Shown here one piece after another: positions 3,406-37,500 of a DNA stretch of 64,000 nt (position 1 is the first letter of the stretch; every line of letters starts with the position of its first letter). The notes beneath the pieces were generated by a model. That model ran no database searches. It was given only the letters and a program-made list of their open reading frames with translations, and had not been told where the DNA came from. Position numbers and translations under genes: made by a program. The stretch is from Jaminaea rosea (lineage: Eukaryota > Basidiomycota > Exobasidiomycetes > Microstromatales), in the NCBI RefSeq assembly GCF_003144245.1, contig NW_020289978.1, positions 434,001 to 498,000 on the forward strand, written 5' to 3'.

Positions 3406-6132
3406 TTATCCGTAAATCCTCACCACCCCATCAGCCCCCGCGCTCCCAAAGAAAGGGAGGGTCGGGTGGAACTTGACAGCTAGCACACCCTCGCCTTCTG
3501 ACTTGGAGTGGTCCTGAATCTCTTGCGTGAGAACGATGCCTTCCTCCTCCTCCTCATCGTCTTCTTCCTCGCCGGCTGCTCTCGAATCCTCCTCCGACTC
3601 CCCCTGAGGAGCTGCTGCTTTCCTCTTTGACTTCTTTGACCCACCATCAGAAGACGCCTCTGATCCACTCTCGTCCAATTCTCCGCCAAGACGGCTGAGA
3701 TCCCACAACCTCGTCCAACCGTCATGACCGGCACTGAGCAACTTCAGCCCACTCGGGTCTACGTCGAGGCTAGTCACTCCCTCCTTGTGCGCATGACAGC
3801 TTCCCACTACACTGCCCGTGAACACATCAACGATGCGCAGCCACTTGTCCTCGTGCCCTGTAAAGAGCAGGGGAAGCGTAGGGTGCGAAGCAAGGCAGTT
3901 GATCTGGGTCGCGGGAGTTTGGTCGTAACTTCCACTGAGCCCTGCTTCGGGCGTTCCGCCCAACTTGGAGACTTCCTGCCCATCTGAGAGTCGGAAAGTC
4001 TTGACTACGCAGTTGGAGTAAGAGACGGCGCATTCCCTCAGCTTAGAGTGGACGCGCACGATTGATGTGGGAACGGGCAGACCGCCCGATTCTTGGCGGA
4101 GGGCTTCGCTTTCCTTCTCGCGATCTGCTGCGCTTGAAGGTGAGGGGGAGAGGCCGAAGTAATCCCAGGTGTGGAGCAGGTGTGGTCCCGAGGAGGCGGA
4201 AGCGGCGGCGTCGGTGGTGGCGTCGTCCGCAGTAGGATCGAGGGAGTAGAGGCGAACCATGCCATCTGCAGAAGCAGTTGCGAGCAATGAGTCGTCGCCT
4301 GCTGTTGATGGAAGGAGGGTGAGGGCCGTGATCTCCGAGTCGGTTTTGATTGAGGCGAGCGGCTGGACGACCAAAGGCTGCTGCTGCTCAGTCGAATCGT
4401 CCTCTGATCCCTCTTCTCTCCTGCCGTTGGCACTCTTAGCAGCAACATCAGGGATGGCCCAAACCTTGAGCGTCGAGTCGATTGACCCGCTGTAGATGCG
4501 TCGACGAGCTGAAGAGACGGTCACGCTAGTGACGAGGTTGCTGTGACCCTCCAGAGTGGCAACGACGCCCGCGTTCTGCTGTTGACCTCGCGGAGCGGCT
4601 CCTCCATGCATCATAGTTCTCTCCACTCTGGCGACCTTGATCGTCCTGTCACTCGACGCTGAGACCACTACGACAGCCTCGTCTCCTCCTGCGCCCTGAT
4701 CGAACGCGATAGCCTTGACAGCCCCACGGTGATGCGCCAGATGACGCTTCATACGCCAAAGCTGGCTTTCTTTGCTAGCTGCGTCCACTTCGTCGTCCAG
4801 CGAATCATCGCCGCCGCCCGTCGAGGAGGTAGATGAGAGGGACGAAGCTTCGCGAAGAAGACGCTTGGCTCGTTCAGAGGAGAGGGTCTCGGGTGCGCCA
4901 GTGTGATCGTCCTCCGACGATGAAGCGACAACACCTGATGCCTCTACTGCCGCTGCACCCACGCCTGCGCCGGCCGCAGCCGCTGCTGCTGCCTTCCGCT
5001 CATTCTCGCGCTTGAGCCTGCCCTCCTGGCCGGCTTGCTTGAGCTTCTCCCAGTCTTCGACACCGCCTGTTGATCTAAACATGGAAGGGGCTGATGAAGA
5101 GGGCTCGTCACTGGGCGCTGCGGTTGCCTCTTCAGCCGGGGCGACTGTGGCATCTAGTCCCTCGCCGGCAACGCTGCCGCTCTCTACGTCTTCCGTCGCT
5201 GCAGCTGGCGGTGGTGGAGGCTCATCGATGAGCGTCTTCTTTGGACGAGGTGGCCCGCCGACGAAGCTGGCAGCGCCGCTCATGGGTCTGTCCGGGAGTG
5301 GGTTGAGGGTCGTCGAGCTGGTGAGGTATGAGATCTCCTGCAGACATTGCTTGAGGTATTCACGACTCCTCTCCCGCGAACGGTAGTCCTTGGATGTGGC
5401 AGAGGATGTCGTGTTGGTGGAGAGCTGGCGATTTAGGAGGGAGGGTGCCATACTAATTGAGCCATTGAGGGTCGGGATGGTAGCTGCAGATGCTGCTGTA
5501 CCTGCTCGCGCATGGTGTTGTTGCTGCTCGCCAAAGTCAATGGGCGAGCTTCGTCCGCTGCCAGCGCTGCTGAGGGTCGACTCCTTCTCGAGGTTAGCTA
5601 CAGCGGGATGCTTTGCTACAGGAGCTGCTCCTGCCGCTGCTGCAGGTCCAGAGGCCCCTGCGAGATACTTTGATCTCTCTTGCTTGAGGGCGAATTCGAG
5701 CATCTTGACTCGACGCATGAGGTTCGTCTTGAGATTCTCTGCGCCGCGCTTCTCGCCTTCGAGAAGGGCGATGCGTGCCTGGGAGTGGGCGAAAAGAGCG
5801 ACAAGAATGCGTCAGTTGTCGGCTGGTTGGAGCAGAGCTTGAATGTCGCGCCTACTAACCCTCATCTCAGCTCTCTCAATCTCCCATTCATTTCTGTCCT
5901 TTTCGTATCTTCTCCACTCGGACTGAAGGTAATGCAGTACACCTGCGAGGGTATATTCCGGGGCCTGATTGGCGCTGCTAGCCGCATCTTGGCTGCCTCC
6001 TCCATTAGCTGCTACTCCGCCATGCTGCTGTTGCTGTTGTCCGATGCCATTATTGTTGGAACCCATTTGACCAAACTTGAGTCCTGCGCCGCCGCCTTGG
6101 CCAAGGGGCTGTTGGCCCTGCTGATGCATCAT
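3406..6132 (-). CDS. PRO11: Striatin, STRIPAK scaffold (Pro11/Far8 type)
   Basis: Scaffold subunit of the STRIPAK phosphatase-kinase complex, which in fungi controls cell fusion, development and septation signalling. Exons on the minus strand are 6132-5860 and 5778-3406, with an 81-nt intron; 881 aa. After a Gln/Gly-rich head, residues 60-115 carry the striatin N-terminal block, including YTLAGVLHYLQSEWRRYEKD and, across the splice, IERAEMRARIALLEGE. This is the caveolin-binding and coiled-coil dimerisation region. A long Ser/Ala/Glu-rich linker follows. The C-terminal half, from about residue 440 to the end, is a WD40 propeller; repeats with GH...W/Y ends are visible (EGHSNLVTSV, KVWAIPD, RLWDLSRL) and the last blade ends VVRIYG. 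The ATG at 6132 is followed by a second Met. Identification is firm from the N-terminal block combined with WD40 repeats. Confidence 0.93.
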
Positions 6133-6774: not shown

Positions 6775-9539
6775 TTACTTCTGCTCCACCCTTGACCAGC
6801 CCTGTCGCGCCTTGCCCTCGGTCCCCTCCAGCCACTCACCCAACTCCTCCAGGCCAGCCTTGGCGAACCTCTCCCCCTCGAAGTGATGCGTCTGCTCCCC
6901 AGTCTCGCCATTGACGTCCACGCTCGCACTGCGCAGCACCTTGACGTCACCCAATACGCTCAGTCCGCTCCCTCCTACGACGGTCTCGTGAACGGATGAG
7001 AAGTCAGGCAGGCGCTGCAGTGATTCGCGGGCCTCGGACACGACATTGTCCGGCGTGCCAGACGGGATGAGCGTGACTGCACAGCCTCCGCCGCCAGCTC
7101 CTGTAAGCTTGGTGGAGAGAGCGGGCGATACAGTGCTCAGGGCGTTGCGCACCTCCTCGAGAGAAGGGTGGGACACGCCAAGAGGGGACGCGAGAAGCTG
7201 GTGATTCTTCTTCATCAGCTCACCCAGCTTGACGTCCGCATCCTTGCCGCCCGAAGTGAGGAGCTGAGCCGCCTCGTCGGCGATCTTTTGGATCGTGTCG
7301 AAGGCGGCGTTGACTTGAGACGGGTCCTGGTCGAGGCGCTGCTGCACTCCCGCGACGAGAGCCTTTGTGTCGCGTGAGACACCCGTGTCCGTCAGCAGAA
7401 GACGCTTGGCGTGCACATTCGGTAGGAGCTTGAGCTCATTGCTCTTGTGCTGGTTGCGCGGGGCAGAGGGACGCGTGAAGGTAAGGCAGCCACCGTAGAC
7501 TGCGACCGAGTTGTCCACGCCCGAGGGGTTGCCGTGCAGTACACGCTCCGAAAGGAAGGCGTAGCTGTTCACAAGGTCAGCGTCCGCGCTTGAGATGGGG
7601 GACGAGGCCGAGGGGATGGAGATGACGCCGTTGGTGTAGAGGAGTGCAGAGGCCAGGCAGGCAGAGTAGGCTGCAGAGGATCCGAGGCCAGCAGAGATGG
7701 GCAGCAATGAGCGGAAGGTGAACGTCTGGCCCTGGTGAGACTTGGCGCCAAGCGTCATGAAGAGGTAGAGGAAGGCAACACAGCTTGCATGGTCGCGCTC
7801 GGCTGCGGCTGCCTTGCTCTCCACGGTCTGCACAATACGGCGGAGCAGTCTAGCGTCGAGCTCCGTTGGTGTCTCGGTGGCCTTGTTCAGCCCACCGACC
7901 TTGGACGGTACAGCATCCCAGGGAAGGTCTGCAATGATCCACTCATGGTTGACCTTGAGCTCGGGCAGCTCCAATTGCACTTTACCGTCTCCTCGTGGCT
8001 GGACGAGCGCATAGCATCGCAATCCTACCGAAGCGGCCAGCGCCGTGACGCCGTGGACCACCGCGTGCTCGCCGAAGAGGATGACCTTGCCCGGTGCAGA
8101 GACTACGATGGATTGCTGAGAGGCAGGGCTGGCTGCTGCTGCCGCAGGAGCTGACATGGAGCCATTGGCTGCCGTCGACGAGGCAGGCTTAGCACGCGTG
8201 AGTTGCCCATTGGCGTCCTTGTGCAGTGCTCCCGCAGCAAGGAAGGCGGCGTCCAGGTCGGCGATCAAGTCATCCGGGTCCTCGATTCCCACACACAGTC
8301 TAAGCAGGTTCTCAGGAAGGGCACGCGCCGCTCGAACTTTGGGGTCGATGGCTGCGTGCGACATGAGGCAGGGCATACTGATGAGGGAGTTGACGCTGCC
8401 GAATGAGACACTGACGCCCCAGAGACGCGTGGCGTTGACGACCATCTGGCTGAGCTGCGGGTCGTCAGTCTCGAAGGAAATGACGGCTCCTGCTCCCTTT
8501 GCCTGGGAGAAGTGCATGTCCCTCCCTGGGTGGCCCTTGAGGCCGGGGTAGTGCGTCTTAAAGCCCAATCCCTGGAGGTGCTCTGCGACGCGTTGCGCAC
8601 CCAATTGCTGGGCTGCCAGACGGATGTGCAGCGTCTTGAGACCACGCATGAGCAAGAAAGACTCAAACGGCGCGAGGGCATTGCCGACTGAATTGATGGT
8701 GAAGTGGTAGGTCTGGGCCAAATCATCGTTGTTCGTCGCGATTATTCCGGCCATGAGGTCGTGATGGCCTGAAAGGTACTTGGTAGCCGAATCATAGACG
8801 GCATCGACTCCGAGCTCTAGGGGGCGCATGAGGGCAGGGCTCATCATGGTGTTGTCCATGATGATGGGCGCGTCTTCGGCTGAGATGTACTTGCGGACCG
8901 ATTGGACGCAAGCGCGGATGTCAATGACCTTGAGCATAGGGTTCGTAGGCGTCTCGACAAGGACCTGAGTTGAACCAGCGTCATGGTTAGCACGAGGGAA
9001 ATGACACTTCGGGCTGAAGACGTCCTTGTACTCACCATGCCAAGCTTGGGCGCACCTGGCTGCTTGCCGTCCTCGACCAGCTGTCGCACCGTCTCGGCGA
9101 GAAGCTTCTGATCACTCATGTCGACGTGGACGACCTTGATGTTGTTGTTCTTCATGAGCATACCCAGCAAGCGATGTGTTCCTCCGTAGATGTCGTCACC
9201 CGCCAAGATGACCTCGTTGGGCTTCACAGACCTCGTGATGATGTCCAGACAAGCCATGCCTGTGGAGACGGCAAAGGAGTACTTGGCCCCTTGGATCTTG
9301 GATAGATGGTTTTGGAGGACACTACGGCTAGGGTTGGAGGACCTGGAATAGTCATAGGCTGTCTTCTTTGTACCTGGGAGTCCCTTGAAAGTGGTGCACT
9401 GGTATATGGGCGTTGATGAGCTGCCATACTGATCGAGGTGGTCCGGGTCGTAGATGGTTGCGCACAGCGTCTGAAAGGACCACGTCTTGGAGGGATGGTC
9501 TTCACCGATCCCAGCGCCTGCGGGGATGAGAGGAGCCAT
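6775..9539 (-). CDS. STR3-ERG12: Cystathionine beta-lyase fused in frame to mevalonate kinase
   Basis: One continuous coding frame joins two enzymes of unrelated pathways. Exons on the minus strand are 9539-9036 and 8964-6775 (63-nt intron); 897 aa. Residues 1 to about 410 are a PLP-dependent cystathionine beta-lyase (cystathionine to homocysteine, methionine synthesis): YDYSRSSNPSR, AGDDIYGGTHRLL, VETPTNPM across the splice, Schiff-base lysine 230 in YDSATKYLSGHHDLMAG, and SFGSVNSLISMPC. After an Ala/Ser linker, residues about 450-890 form a GHMP-type mevalonate kinase (mevalonate to 5-phosphomevalonate, sterol pathway): SAPGKVILFGEHAVVHG, PISAGLGSSAAYS, NPSGVDNSVAVYGG with the catalytic Asp, TDTGVSRDTKALV and LTGAGGGGCAV. 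Each half is about as long as the free enzyme. No stop separates them. An in-frame ATG at 8157 (residue 438) lies just before the kinase and could start a separate kinase product. Confidence 0.9.
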
Positions 9540-23641: not shown

Positions 23642-23750
23642 TTCCCAGTCCGGGAATCGAACCCGGGCCAGCCGCGTATTCAGGGAATCGAACAATTGCC
23701 GCTTGATTTCTCATGAGAGGCGGCGATCCTAACCACTGGACCAACTAGGA
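23642..23750 (-). tRNA. tRNA-Glu (anticodon CTC) with a 37-nt intron
   Basis: The minus strand folds as a 72-nt tRNA after removal of 23677-23713. The acceptor stem is TCCTAGT with ACTGGGA (one T-G wobble), with discriminator A at 23642. The D arm is GGTCCAGTGGTTAGGAT. The anticodon arm is GCCGC-CTCTCA-[intron]-C-GCGGC with CTC at 34-36, and the T arm is CCCGGGTTCGATTCCCGG. The intron sits at the canonical position 37/38, so it would be removed by the tRNA splicing endonuclease. The exonic sequence closely follows eukaryotic tRNA-Glu-CTC. The intron contains an 11-base copy of the T-loop sequence GTTCGATTCCC (plus-strand 23683-23693, mature copy 23652-23662). Confidence 0.93.
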
Positions 23751-23783: not shown

Positions 23784-23832
23784 TACAGCCGCTTGATTAA
23801 CATGCAGCCGCGTGCCTGAATATACAGCCGTC
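23784..23832. repeat. Three degenerate about 20-bp repeats upstream of the tRNA
   Basis: The plus strand holds three loose copies of a motif centred on cagccg with flanking atatac or acatg. The segment gccgcttgatt (23788-23798) also occurs in the tRNA intron (23698-23708), and cagccgcgt (23805-23813) occurs in the tRNA (23669-23677). This suggests local duplication around the tRNA gene. Confidence 0.5.
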
Positions 23833-23968
23833 TGCATGTGTTGCTCTCCACTCGCCCCGGGCCAGTGTTGCTTTCATCCCCCTCATCACCAAGCAGGAAA
23901 GGCCGGGACCTGAATCAGCCTCACTCTCGGCCCGACGCATTGCCCTGACTCATCGTACACCCGCCGCC

Positions 23969-24900
23969 ATGTCTTTGCATCCACTCCTCCTGGTCCGACA
24001 GCCCTCTCCCCGCCTGTCCGAGGGGATCCTCACCCACCTCTCACCACGCACGGCCGACCCACCCACACTCGCTCGCTCTCTCGCACAGTGGAAGGCGTAT
24101 GTCGACGTCTTTCGGCAGCGGGGATGGGACGTGATTGAAGTAGAGGCAGCGGATGAGTGCCCTGATGGCGTCTTCATCGAGGATGCAGTGGTCGTCTTCC
24201 CTGGAGAGCCGGGCGTGGTCATGCTCGTCCGATCTGGTAGTGAGGAGCGCCGCAAAGAGTACGCGACGGCGAAGAGCGCGGTTGAGGAGCATTTGGTCAA
24301 GAAGCGCGGCTTCGAGCTTGTGGACTTTTACGATGACAAGGTAGACTCAACGGGACATGCCACGATGGACGGCGGCGATGTGCTCAAGGTCGCCAAGGAG
24401 AAGACGGTCTACGTGGGTTTGTCGGGAAGGACTAACAAGGAGGGCGTTGAAGTGATCAAGCGAGAGATGGGAATGAAACGCGGTTGGAAGGTCGTGACTG
24501 TCGACATGGGAGGCAAGGGCTGGCTGCACCTGAGTGAGTTCACACGTATGTCAGTCTACTGGACGACATTCTCACGCCTTGGCGCCCTACAGAGTCCGCG
24601 ACGACCGCTCTCCCCTGTGGCTCCCACTTCCTGCTCGCCGCCATGCAAGGTGGCGCATCTCGCCCGGACTCAAAGACACTGCGGATCAAGGAAGAAGGCG
24701 AGACGCCTTGGATCGAGGTGGCAGAAGACGAGGGCGTGGCAGTCGTGGAGCTTGGCGGCAAGGACGTGCTCCTCTCCTCTTCTGCGCCGCGTACCAAGGC
24801 TCAGCTCGAAGCGCAAGGCTGGAACGTCATCACGGCCGATGTGGCAGACTTTGAGGCTCTCGAGGGGTGCGTGACATGCCTAAGCGTGCGCGTCAGGTGA
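23969..24900 (+). CDS. DDAH: Dimethylargininase (DDAH), amidinotransferase fold
   Basis: Hydrolyses N-omega-methylated arginines to citrulline plus methylamines, in the cytosol. Exons are 23969-24533 and 24593-24900 (59-nt intron, phase 1); 290 aa, the usual DDAH length. Signature segments are LLVRQPSPRLSEG at the N-terminus, the acidic DECPDGVFIEDAVVVF, the glycine-rich ATMDGGDVLKV, and the catalytic His in LHLKSATTALPCGS, which is rebuilt exactly across the splice. The C-terminal EGCVTCLSVRVR carries the nucleophilic Cys. DDAH feeds on methylarginine released from proteins; fungi generally have protein arginine methyltransferases, so a catabolic role is plausible. An arginine deiminase-like enzyme is less likely given the length and C-terminus. 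Confidence 0.88.
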
Positions 24901-31597: not shown

Positions 31598-34500
31598 TCA
31601 CGCGGACCCCTCGAACAGGTCCGCAAGCACATCACGATCCAGAGCCGCCCAATTCATATCGCCCTTGGCAGCACCGGCAATACTGCGCTGGAAGCTAGTA
31701 CTGCTTGCCAGGCGCAGGAAGGGCACGAGATCGCGAAGCCCGCTCAACCTTCGCACGCCCGTCAGCAGAGGCTCGCGTACGCCGCCTCTGCTCTTGCTTC
31801 GGAGCGACGATGGCGCCGCCGCCACAGAAGCAGCTCCTTTACCGCCACCGGACCCAGCTGCTCCACTCGCCTCGATCGCCTCTGCCAAACGGTCGAACAA
31901 ACCCTCCTCCAAGCCAAACTCATCCCCTCCCAAATCAGAGTCATTGACGAACAGCCACTGATGTACCTGAAACTCTGGCGTCCTCAAGCAGAGCAGCGCG
32001 TCGACGAACTTGCACGCTGCCACGAGCAGATGCACTCCATCGGACCCATCGGCAGGCAAATGCTGCGTAGCCGTGCCCCCTTCCTCTCCTCCGCTTGCAT
32101 AACTTTCAAACAGGCGGACGAGCTCCGTGATGATGATCGGCCAGAGAGTCGTCAGATGCCTGCTTTGAAAGCGAAGCAGCATTACTCGCAGGCATAGATA
32201 CGCCTCAGCTGCCACACGATCCGGTATAGGGTGGCTGCGCAGCATCTCGACGAGCTTTTCCTGCACCTGGGGCAATTGCGCGAGGAACTGGTCCTTGGCA
32301 CCAGAGAAGAGGACGAAGGTCAATCTCCTCAAACTGAGCGACCGCGCCACAACCTCTGCCTCGCGATTGGTAAAGATGTTCGCCGACGCCGTCGCGCTGA
32401 TCCGACCCAGCACCTCGCCTACGAAGTAGCGATCCCTATCCGTTGCATAGAGCAATACGATCGGGCCACGCCACCTTTTGCCCGCTGTAGCGCTCATCTT
32501 GAAGAAACGTCCGTCCATGAAGGCGTCGCTGACAGGGCCGCGCAATGTCTTCAATGAAAGAGGCACAGTGCGGCCGATCTCGGTCGCCAGAGCTAAGATG
32601 GAAGGGTCGATGTGCTCGAAGGAGCGATGCGCGTTCTTGATGCGGAGAGGCGGGGAGAGGATGTAATAGATGGCGTTGTTGCAACACGAGGAGACTTTGT
32701 CCTGGTCTGAGGCGATCTTGCGGAGTGCGGGAAGTGCGGTGCTGCTTAAGTAGTCGACGAGGGCCGAGGAGGAGAAGTCGCTGAGCGAAGCGATGGAGCC
32801 GCTCATCGCAGCCTTCTCGTCGCCGAAGTCGGTGCGTGCCGGGATCATCCAGTTGGCCGTAGCAGCCTCGAATGAACGGCCGGCGATCAGGACGCAGAGG
32901 TCGAAGAGCTTGACATAAACTTCTTGCATCTCGCGGCGCATCCTGCGGTCCTCAGGAGGTGGCGCAACAGCAGCTGCCGTCATCGTGGACGTGCTTGACG
33001 CCGCGGCAGACGACGCCAGCAGCTTCTCTCCGAGCACAGTCAAACAGCGCAGCGCAGGAGGAAGATAACCCTTGTAGGCCGTGCTATTTGCGATGAGATC
33101 CTTGACGAGTACCACGATGATGGGCCAAACGCCTTGAGCCGCAGCAGGCGACTCCAGTCGCGTCACATACACTTCGAGGAAGCTCATAAGCATGCCCTCT
33201 GATACTAGCTGATTGGGCGTCCAGTTTGGCCTCGATGTGCCTGGCGAGGGCAGGCGCTGCGCGAGCAGGTCGCACAGGAAGGTGACGACCATTTTGTGGC
33301 CTGCGACGAGGAGGTTGACAATCTCAAAGATGCTCTCTGCCTGTATCTTGCCTGCTGTCCCGGCACCTGCTCGACCCCAGCAATCGACCAGCGTCTCAAG
33401 CGTAGCGGCAGGCTGAACTTTGTAGAGTCGCTCAAAGCAGCGTCTGACACGCTGACGGACTTTACCGCTCATCACGGCGAACGTGGTTGCCCGCTGGTCG
33501 TCATCGCGCGGCGCCTGCTCATCACTCAATCCGACCCAGAGGGAGTGGAGCGTACGCAGGCAGAGCTGGAGAGCCAAGATGGACGGGCTGGTAGGAGGCG
33601 TGCCAAGCTGCGGTGTCCCGTTGCCTGGCGTCGACTCACCACCGAAGATGCCGGTCACGTAGCCGAAGATGCCTACGCCGCTTCCTGCCGCAGGCACGTC
33701 ATTTGACACTTGCTGGTGGGGATACTGCTGCTGCTGCGATGAATTCTCCTCAATCGTGGGATTGCCTGAAGCCGTCTTCTTTGACGAGGGTGTAGCTGCT
33801 TGTAGAACGGCAGGGGGCGGCTGAGCAATTCCACTTCCTGATGCCGAGTGACCTGTCTCCTGATGTCTATGACTTTCCGACTTGTGTTGATTGCCGCCGT
33901 CATCCTCGAGGCATAGCAAGACGATGCGCTCGGAAACGTTGATCAGTGTCACAAAGTCGTCCTCTCGCATTGATAAAGAAAGCGAAGGCAAGGACGATGT
34001 GGTCCGTTGAACCTCCGGCAATGGGCCGTGGAAGACGTCATGTATCTCTGCCTCTGCCTCAACGATCGTCTTGCACACGCTTGTGTGGAGAGGGACGAGC
34101 AGTGACGCCATGCAGCGGCGGTACTGCGGCAGCGTCATCAGGACAAAGTCTGCCCAGTGCGGGAGCAATGAGTAGCGGCCAGGCTGGGCCAGGCCGGCGC
34201 GAAGCGTGCGAAGGAGCAGGGGATGTGGGTTGAACGCAGTAGACGGGGAGGACCCGCTGCTGCTGCCATTGCTGCCATCGCCGCCGGATACATCGCGCTG
34301 CCGAGCGTGGAAACCAGCTTTGGACGATATGACTGTGTGAAGCGCCAAAAGAAGTCGGTGCTGATTCAGCCCTGAAGGCCCCTCAATGCCGACGAGGAGC
34401 CGCTCCAGCAGCAAAGTCTCAATGTCGGCGAGCTGCGATGTAGTGAAGCCATTCTTCGAGGCCGCAAGTTGCAGAAAATCAGCGCAATGGGTATGCGTGG

Positions 34501-37500
34501 TCGCGTCGAGGTCACTATACGAGGCTCGGCGCGATGTCCGAAGAAGGCGGAGCAAGATGGCCAGGCATTCCTCCATGTAGGTTGGCCCTGTCGAAGGTGA
34601 TGGCGACGTCGTCGTCGCTGCTCGTACGAATCCAGCTCCGCCGTACCTCGCGATGGCCAACAGGACAGATAGCCAGTGATTGAGCAGTCTGTGGTCGAAG
34701 GGATGTGTATAGACCAGCGTCTTGACATCGGTGCCCTCAGCGCATCTGATGGTACAGTGCGCCATGCTCCCCGAACCAGTTGCGCGTCGGAATGACCCTA
34801 GTATGAGGTTGAAGATAGGAGCATAGGATCGAACGTTCACCCGCAGCCAAGTCTCCACAGCTTGGCGACGTCTTTGATCCGGCGATTGCAAGAGGTCAAG
34901 GAAATGCCCAAGCGGAGCAGCACATGCTGGTGAGGAGAGCTTAGCTGGGTCCGACAACCTCCATATTACGCCGAACGCGAGCAGAAACTGGTCCATGCGT
35001 CGCTCAGAGAGGATCTCAGCGCACGATAAGGTCTGGAGCAAGCCTTCCTTTGCCGTGTGCGAATCGAGAAGCCAGAAAAGGTCGACTGCTCGGCCGTGAA
35101 ACATGACTGCGTCTGGCAGAAGGAATTGACGGACGTTGGCGTACACGGCGCATGTTTGCCGCTTCGATTCGTTGGAAAGAAGATCCAGTCTCGGAACGAG
35201 CAAAGGGCAGCTGATTACCGCGTCGATGGTGAACAGAGCGGACTCAAGCTCGGAAAAGCTCGTGGCTTTGCCCGCCTTCCCGAGGAGTAGATGAGTCCAA
35301 CCAAGCGGGAGGCTAAGAGAGCATTGCGAAGTCTCGTTGGCCGCGTCTGCGGATGAAGCCACCGCAGCTGTGCCTGCTGAGATCTTGCGAAAGAGAGCAG
35401 TGCAGAGGTTCAAGCTGGCCTCGGAGATGATCAGAGATTGTCGCTCCTGCCTATCCCGGCCCACTGTCGATTCAGCCTGCTGAAAGAGACTTGCACAGCA
35501 CTGAAGCAAAGCCTGCTGAACGGCGTGGCTTCGGAAGTCGATTGGAACCTTGTCCGTGCTCTGCGAGCTGTAGAAGGCTTTCAGCGTAGCGACAGAGTCC
35601 GATGTTGCGCTGCCCTCTGCCTCTAATCTCTGTACCGCGGGTAGGTCGATAAGGTCGAGCAGCGCTTTGCATGCTTTGATGGCTTCTTGAAGTAACAGAA
35701 ATGTCTTCTGCTTGTCCAACGACGCCTGCTTCAGGGCACGCTCCGCTTGCTCAATCAGCAGTAGAAGTAGATGCGGCAGATGGATGGCGCGGGAGAGATC
35801 ATCCTTGAAGCTGAAATGCTCCACGATGAACAGTAAGAGACCCACAGTCTCCGGCGAGCCTTGGGTGAAGTCGGCCGCAATTCCCTCGACAAGCTTACGC
35901 GTGAGGATGGACTTGTCAACCGCGTCAAAGAGCATGGTTGCCGTCGTCATCAGATCCTTTGTTGCGTCTGCCCCATACCGGATATGGATCGTCCGTAGAG
36001 AAGCCCAGACATCCAGAACCGCTGAGTCCGTCAGGGCGGCACCTACGCTCCACTTGTCGAGGAGAGCTAGGAAGACGCGAAGAGGTCGCTGGGCCGCAGT
36101 CAACTTGCGTTGAGCATCCTGCTCGTCTTGATGAGGGTCCTCATCTTCGCTCTCTGAGTCGTTGCTAGCACACCCACTCTTTGTAGGTTCGTAGCTGCAA
36201 GCGCGTACATCGAAGAGAACAGCTTCTCGCAGATCGTCAAGGCCGAAGCTTTGCAAGTAGAGAAGCTCTTGCTCTTCGCTATCTAGGGTCTCATCCCGCG
36301 AGCGGAGGGATGCAGACGCAGAACTTTGCCGTACAGCTGCAGCATGAGCCGCGCTTCGTCCTGTACCTCCCAGCCAGGACCACAGCCGTCTATTGAGGCT
36401 CAACTCTCTCCTTCTTACAACGCCGATAGCGCTCTGCATGAGCTCCAAGCGATCCTCGCTAGGCATCGAGTGGTAGAAGACAGTGTCGAGAGGTAGCAGC
36501 TGAAGGAGCAAGTCGAGCCCACCTCGAATGGTCAGGAGCTCTTGTGATGATAGCAGAGCAGAAAGGGCCCTGGGCATCAATACGAGATGCGCCAACAGTG
36601 GCTGCTTCTGCTGCCTTCCGTCGCTGAGACCAGCTGCATTCGCTTCTGAAGTAGTCTTGAGTTGCTGCGGTATGGGCGGGGACCTCTTATGGAGGAAGTG
36701 CACCGCCGCCTGTCCAATTGCTGGATTGCCGATGACTGTAGCCCACAGGCAACGCCAAAAGAGGTCCTTATCCACACACTTCTCCAGCCCATCCAACAGC
36801 TTGAGCGTCCTATCAAAATTTTCCGCTCCTTCCTCCTCCAAGCCCGGCAAGACGGCTAGCAAGAATGGGCGAGTAATCGGTTTGAGATCCTCCTTCAGTG
36901 GCAGAAAGAAGTCCTCCAACAGCCCCAAAATGGCTGGGCGCGTACTGGTATTGGATCGCTCGAAGAAGGGAAGCAAAGCGGGCGACCAGATGGTCAAGTC
37001 GCGGCGGAGCCCGTCTAAGGAGAGGAAGAGGAAGATTTGCCTGTAGACGGAGAGGGCGCGATGGTGTACTCCAGAGGGAAGGGCAGGGTTGAGACATTGA
37101 GAGAGGCGTTTTGCTAGGAGGAGGGCGTTTGGGATGAGGGAGGTGGGTAGGGGCGGAGGGGCAGCGAATATCTGCGAGGACAGCGAGGATCAAGAGGGGT
37201 CAGCAAGTTTCCAGCATACAGTTGATCTCATAACCAGCTCTGTTGGTCCTGCTCACCTTCTCTAGCCTTGCTAGCGCGCCCACAAAGTCTGCCCACTCAT
37301 TGACGGCCTCAAAGGACGCCAAAGCCCTGTCCACCGTAGCCGCATACTTCCGGAAGCGTGGATCAGAAGCCAAGGTTTTCTCGCTTTGACGCTTCCACTT
37401 CCTTTCTGCCTTTCTGGCTGCGGGACTCTTCCATATCCTCTCCTCTTCGGCGGGAGTCAGCGAGACTGCAACGGTCGTCGCTGGCGTGTTGCCGGCGCCG

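Follow-up and report, generated by a model that had tools for sequence, protein, structure and literature searches.

Can one fungal reading frame encode both an enzyme of methionine synthesis and an enzyme of sterol synthesis, and is such a gene new? The question is raised by a locus of the basidiomycete Jaminaea rosea, lying in a 64,000-nucleotide stretch of contig NW_020289978.1 (positions 434,001–498,000) that was analyzed as a whole and is called the window here. An initial annotation of the window described a cystathionine beta-lyase joined to a mevalonate kinase. The gene is almost certainly a basidiomycete Str3/metC–mevalonate kinase fusion, predicted to yield a bifunctional protein.

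The fusion gene occupies window positions 9539–6775 on the minus strand, has one intron, and gives a spliced product of 897 residues; the initial annotation had placed it correctly. Exon 1 (9036–9539, minus strand, 168 codons) encodes the start ATG and the first third of the lyase domain. The main ATG at 9539 is flanked by A (−3) and G (+4). The predicted intron (8965–9035, minus strand) is 71 nt long and in phase 0; its donor is GTGAGT and its acceptor CAG, and CTAAC at 8990 resembles a branch site. Its splice sites are predictions from sequence rather than derived from RNA. Exon 2 (6775–8964, minus strand) encodes the remaining lyase domain, a linker, a complete mevalonate kinase, a C-terminal tail, and a TAA stop. 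It lies within a stop-to-stop frame of 778 codons (6775–9111) and contains no internal stop. Frame and domain matches together confirm the claim that exon 2 is open throughout, with lyase followed by kinase. Exons 1 and 2 are in different genomic frames and form a single reading frame only once spliced.

Genes on both sides of the fusion were identified by profile matches. A Cyclin N-terminal domain (PF00134; 10073–10663, plus strand) is encoded upstream on the opposite strand, and 533 bases separate the fusion ATG from the start of the stop-to-stop frame that holds the cyclin domain. Three ATGs (9696, 9692, and 9653, minus strand) are found in the 161 nt upstream of the fusion start and, if transcribed, could form short upstream reading frames. 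A striatin-family WD40 protein (PF08232 and WD40; 3406–5811, minus strand) is encoded downstream. Because the match covers the profile only from position 31 onward, a further exon probably lies upstream. Farther along the window, an Rfam tRNA match (23642–23750, minus strand) spans 109 bases, is longer than a plain tRNA, and perhaps bears an intron; ARAGORN made no call there with the bacterial code. A neighboring open reading frame (23801–24874, plus strand) has a partial match to eukaryotic dimethylarginine dimethylaminohydrolase (PF19420 positions 26–178 of 291), and the similarity ends in the middle of the frame, perhaps at an intron. A Dopey/DOP1 open reading frame of 1863 codons (31598–37189, minus strand) encodes N-terminal, middle, and C-terminal domains.

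The N-terminal half of the fusion protein is identified as a lyase by Pfam, NCBIfam, and structural matches. Cys_Met_Meta_PP is matched by exon 1 (E 1.3e-25) and by exon 2 (E 5.5e-83). Among the best 25 of 52 matched NCBIfam families, the top model is TIGR01329, eukaryotic cystathionine beta-lyase, which covers residues 34–413 (8230–9440, minus strand, with the intron inside these coordinates) and model positions 11–382 of 383. Its score of 467.3 bits is below the curated cut-off of 487.5, a point against the bifunctional reading. Because the score misses this cut-off, the half is assigned by its sequence to the lyase part of the metC-MVK fusion and not to TIGR01329 in the strict sense. When residues 1–473 are compared with solved structures, Arabidopsis cystathionine beta-lyase 1IBJ ranks first (E 1.8e-95, residues 33–410). 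A SATK motif is present at Lys230, aligned with the same motif in 1IBJ, and we take Lys230 to be the PLP-binding lysine, in agreement with the earlier claim that it is kept.

The C-terminal half matches mevalonate kinase along its full length. TIGR00549 clears its cut-off of 163.05 bits with a score of 215.8 and is covered from position 1 to 276 of 276 by residues 458–800 (7069–8097, minus strand). Exon 2 also matches GHMP_kinases_N (29.2 bits, cut-off 22.3) and GHMP_kinases_C (36.8 bits, cut-off 21), and a galactokinase signature at the start of the kinase barely passes (24 vs 23.1). Among the best 60 of 107 structural matches for exon 2, human (2R3V) and rat (1KVK) mevalonate kinases lead. 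The human alignment extends over exon 2 residues 285–671, which are protein residues 453–839 (E 1.8e-59). As had been described, the GLGSS and GAGGGGCA motifs are retained. Lys461, the GLGSS serines, Glu641, and Asp652 are present and identical in the human alignment, and presumably they are the catalytic residues.

The two domains are joined by an Ala/Ser-rich linker of 40 residues (413–452 as cut in our script; 8113–8232, minus strand). Taken alone, the absence of a stop in these 40 codons is weak evidence. With off-frame stops occurring at a rate of 0.0245, a stop-free linker arises by chance with p of about 0.37, or about 0.12 when the frame match is counted. Codon bias is 0.079 in the linker vs 0.154 and 0.177 in the two domains, and GC3 is 0.55 vs 0.735 and 0.755. 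Across the linker, the coding frame has a lower codon-bias score than the two alternative forward frames and than two of the three reverse frames. Codon bias, compared with the domains and with other frames, thus gives no support for a coding linker, which counts against the bifunctional fusion. Both the chance value and the low bias are what an assembly or sequencing error that merged two adjacent genes could also leave. Because the linker by itself proves little, the case rests on complete domains and published reports. Two complete domains in one frame, in the order and of the size published for other fungi, make the fusion compelling.

The published reports also answer whether the gene is new. 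Liu et al. in 2012 described "metC-MVK" in 12 basidiomycetes, with a mean length of about 886 aa and with Laccaria bicolor as an exception (PMC3342255). In the available text of that paper, metC-MVK is the sole MVK homologue and the sole best metC match of the basidiomycetes analyzed; outside basidiomycetes no metC-MVK protein is reported within their set, and an origin in the ancestor of Basidiomycota is suggested (PMC3342255). Wilson et al. in 2012 reported that the STR3 orthologue carries about 450 aa of kinase sequence at its C terminus in all Basidiomycota examined but Postia placenta, and basidiomycetes in their set are described as having no stand-alone kinase (PMC3468542). These exceptions, Laccaria bicolor in one paper and Postia placenta in the other, count against the bifunctional reading. 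The Lignosus rhinocerotis member has 918 aa and is given as the only gene there that matches mevalonate kinase (PMC4129116). A mycelial unigene of Pleurocybella porrigens carries both domains, which supports expression as a fusion in that species (PMC3720577). The enzyme identities and the fusion proposed in the initial annotation are therefore upheld by domain matches, but the novelty implied by its remark of knowing no such fusion, made before any search, does not hold: the fusion was published in 2012 as a general basidiomycete feature (PMC3342255, PMC3468542). The gene is a member of a known family, an outcome that the annotation itself had named as a refutation. Conservation of the fusion is taken here from the papers and not from sequence comparison.

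The same reports decide the question of an artefact. Ascomycetes are reported to have stand-alone lyase and kinase genes that are apparently unclustered (PMC3468542), which counts against an erroneous joining of two neighboring genes. Four papers, one of them on a unigene, report a fusion of the same order and similar size in other basidiomycetes, and an assembly error was rejected on this ground; its probability is negligible. A protein search of viral contigs returned three stretches that matched a pattern, none of which was a relative, and all 20 stretches from bacterial and archaeal genome contigs were likewise not relatives. This lack of relatives might be held against the bifunctional fusion, but it is expected for a fungal gene. 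A single-protein query reaches close relatives only, and these collections are uninformative on fungi and weak on bacteria.

A separate kinase could be made in addition to the fusion. The initial annotation proposed this for an in-frame ATG at 8155–8157 (minus strand, residue 438), which lies 20 residues ahead of the kinase model start. Such a product might come from an internal transcript or from alternative splicing, and a donor-like GTGTGT at 8296 is close to the end of the lyase. A second GTGAGT within the fusion gene is found at 6839. Twenty-six ATGs precede 8157 (main start included); of these, 17 are in frame and 13 have a purine at −3. ATG 8157 is flanked by T at both −3 and +4, a weak context against the strong one of the main ATG. 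Because of the 26 earlier ATGs and the weak context, a kinase made by leaky scanning to 8157 is unlikely, and so, from sequence features, is internal translation from this ATG. No AATAAA, ATTAAA, or TATAA was found between 6775 and 9700. Overall, an additional separate kinase is improbable and the proposal is disfavored.

In the preferred reading, one spliced mRNA would be translated into one bifunctional protein. The PLP domain at the N terminus would convert cystathionine to homocysteine for methionine synthesis, and the GHMP domain at the C terminus would convert mevalonate to phosphomevalonate in the sterol/isoprenoid pathway. Each half would have its own active site and work independently, with a flexible linker between them. 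The fusion would force equal output of both enzymes, because they share one reading frame. The lyase and kinase steps share no metabolite, so direct channelling between the halves is unlikely. This lack of a shared metabolite also argues against a regulatory purpose for the fusion. The fusion may date from a basidiomycete ancestor in which no other gene supplied either activity, after which it would have been hard to lose. Its long persistence would follow if no second gene for either enzyme exists, a situation that the papers describe for other species, and such a lock-in is probably the reason that the fusion persists. What we infer is that both activities are present, that the Jaminaea rosea genome has no other copy, that the linker is flexible, and why the fusion persists. 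If no other copy is present in this genome, as in the published ones, the gene should be required for both methionine and sterols. The literature on the fusion examined, mostly papers available without subscription, reports in its available text no enzyme activity of any member and no experimental test of the reason for the fusion or of sulfur–sterol coupling.

A different reason for persistence is that the fusion is a regulatory device, which puts an enzyme for methionine (hence SAM) under sterol control or lets one domain tune the other, so linking the supply of SAM to isoprenoid output as the initial annotation had suggested. Such a role does not conflict with bifunctionality, and the only idea it rivals is lock-in as the reason. 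In Ganoderma lingzhi, g3941, annotated as mevalonate kinase, is described as an SREBP target that is up on SREBP overexpression (PMC9810662). If g3941 is fused, sterol signals would move the lyase too; the available text mentions no fusion of g3941 and does not contain the word cystathionine (PMC9810662). Reported phylum-wide conservation fits selection for linkage (PMC3342255, PMC3468542), but sole-copy lock-in explains it equally well, and the lack of a test of coupling in that literature also weighs against the proposal. A regulatory role of some kind is unlikely. Still a little less likely is the broader version, a coupler selected phylum-wide, in which sterol-sensing control sets both the supply of SAM precursor and the use of mevalonate; were it true, separating the two halves would upset the balance of sterol methylation. 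Lock-in thus stays the preferred reason. The family raises the neglected question of why a whole phylum keeps two metabolically unrelated enzymes in a single polypeptide.

Fusion may also explain why mevalonate kinase is missed by automatic annotation in such fungi. Ustilago maydis Mvk1 (UMAG_05496) is reported as the one enzyme of the pathway that KEGG does not predict (PMC7396576). This gap would be consistent with a fused gene catalogued by its lyase part. The fusion state of UMAG_05496 is not stated in the available text, in which the word cystathionine is absent (PMC7396576). Xanthophyllomyces papers give ERG12 as mevalonate kinase, and one of them describes it as cytoplasmic; their available text makes no mention of fusion to a lyase. 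A Ganoderma lucidum transcriptome is reported to contain two unigenes for the kinase, one of 987 nt and one of 1144 nt, and each is too short for the fusion.

The Jaminaea rosea gene adds one more sequence to the published family. Like metC-MVK as reported, it has the lyase placed before the kinase, and its 897 aa are close to the mean of about 886 aa (PMC3342255, PMC3468542); the Lignosus rhinocerotis member is longer, at 918 aa. No difference from the published family was established. A 16-aa kinase insert is reported in seven of the 12 metC-MVK members (7/13 in the figure legend) and so does not define the family (PMC3342255). It is not evident in the Jaminaea rosea protein, in which the largest mid-kinase insert relative to the human kinase is 7 residues, with 3 more nearby, as judged by alignment without the letters of the published insert. 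Ustilago maydis Mvk1, a further close comparison, is the mevalonate kinase of a smut fungus. Compared with stand-alone cystathionine beta-lyase (Arabidopsis 1IBJ, fungal Str3), the aligned lyase region and PLP-lysine motif are kept, but a linker and a kinase are appended. Compared with stand-alone mevalonate kinase (human 2R3V, rat 1KVK, yeast Erg12), the motifs are kept in the human alignment, but the Jaminaea rosea kinase has a lyase in front and 58 residues past the human-aligned part.
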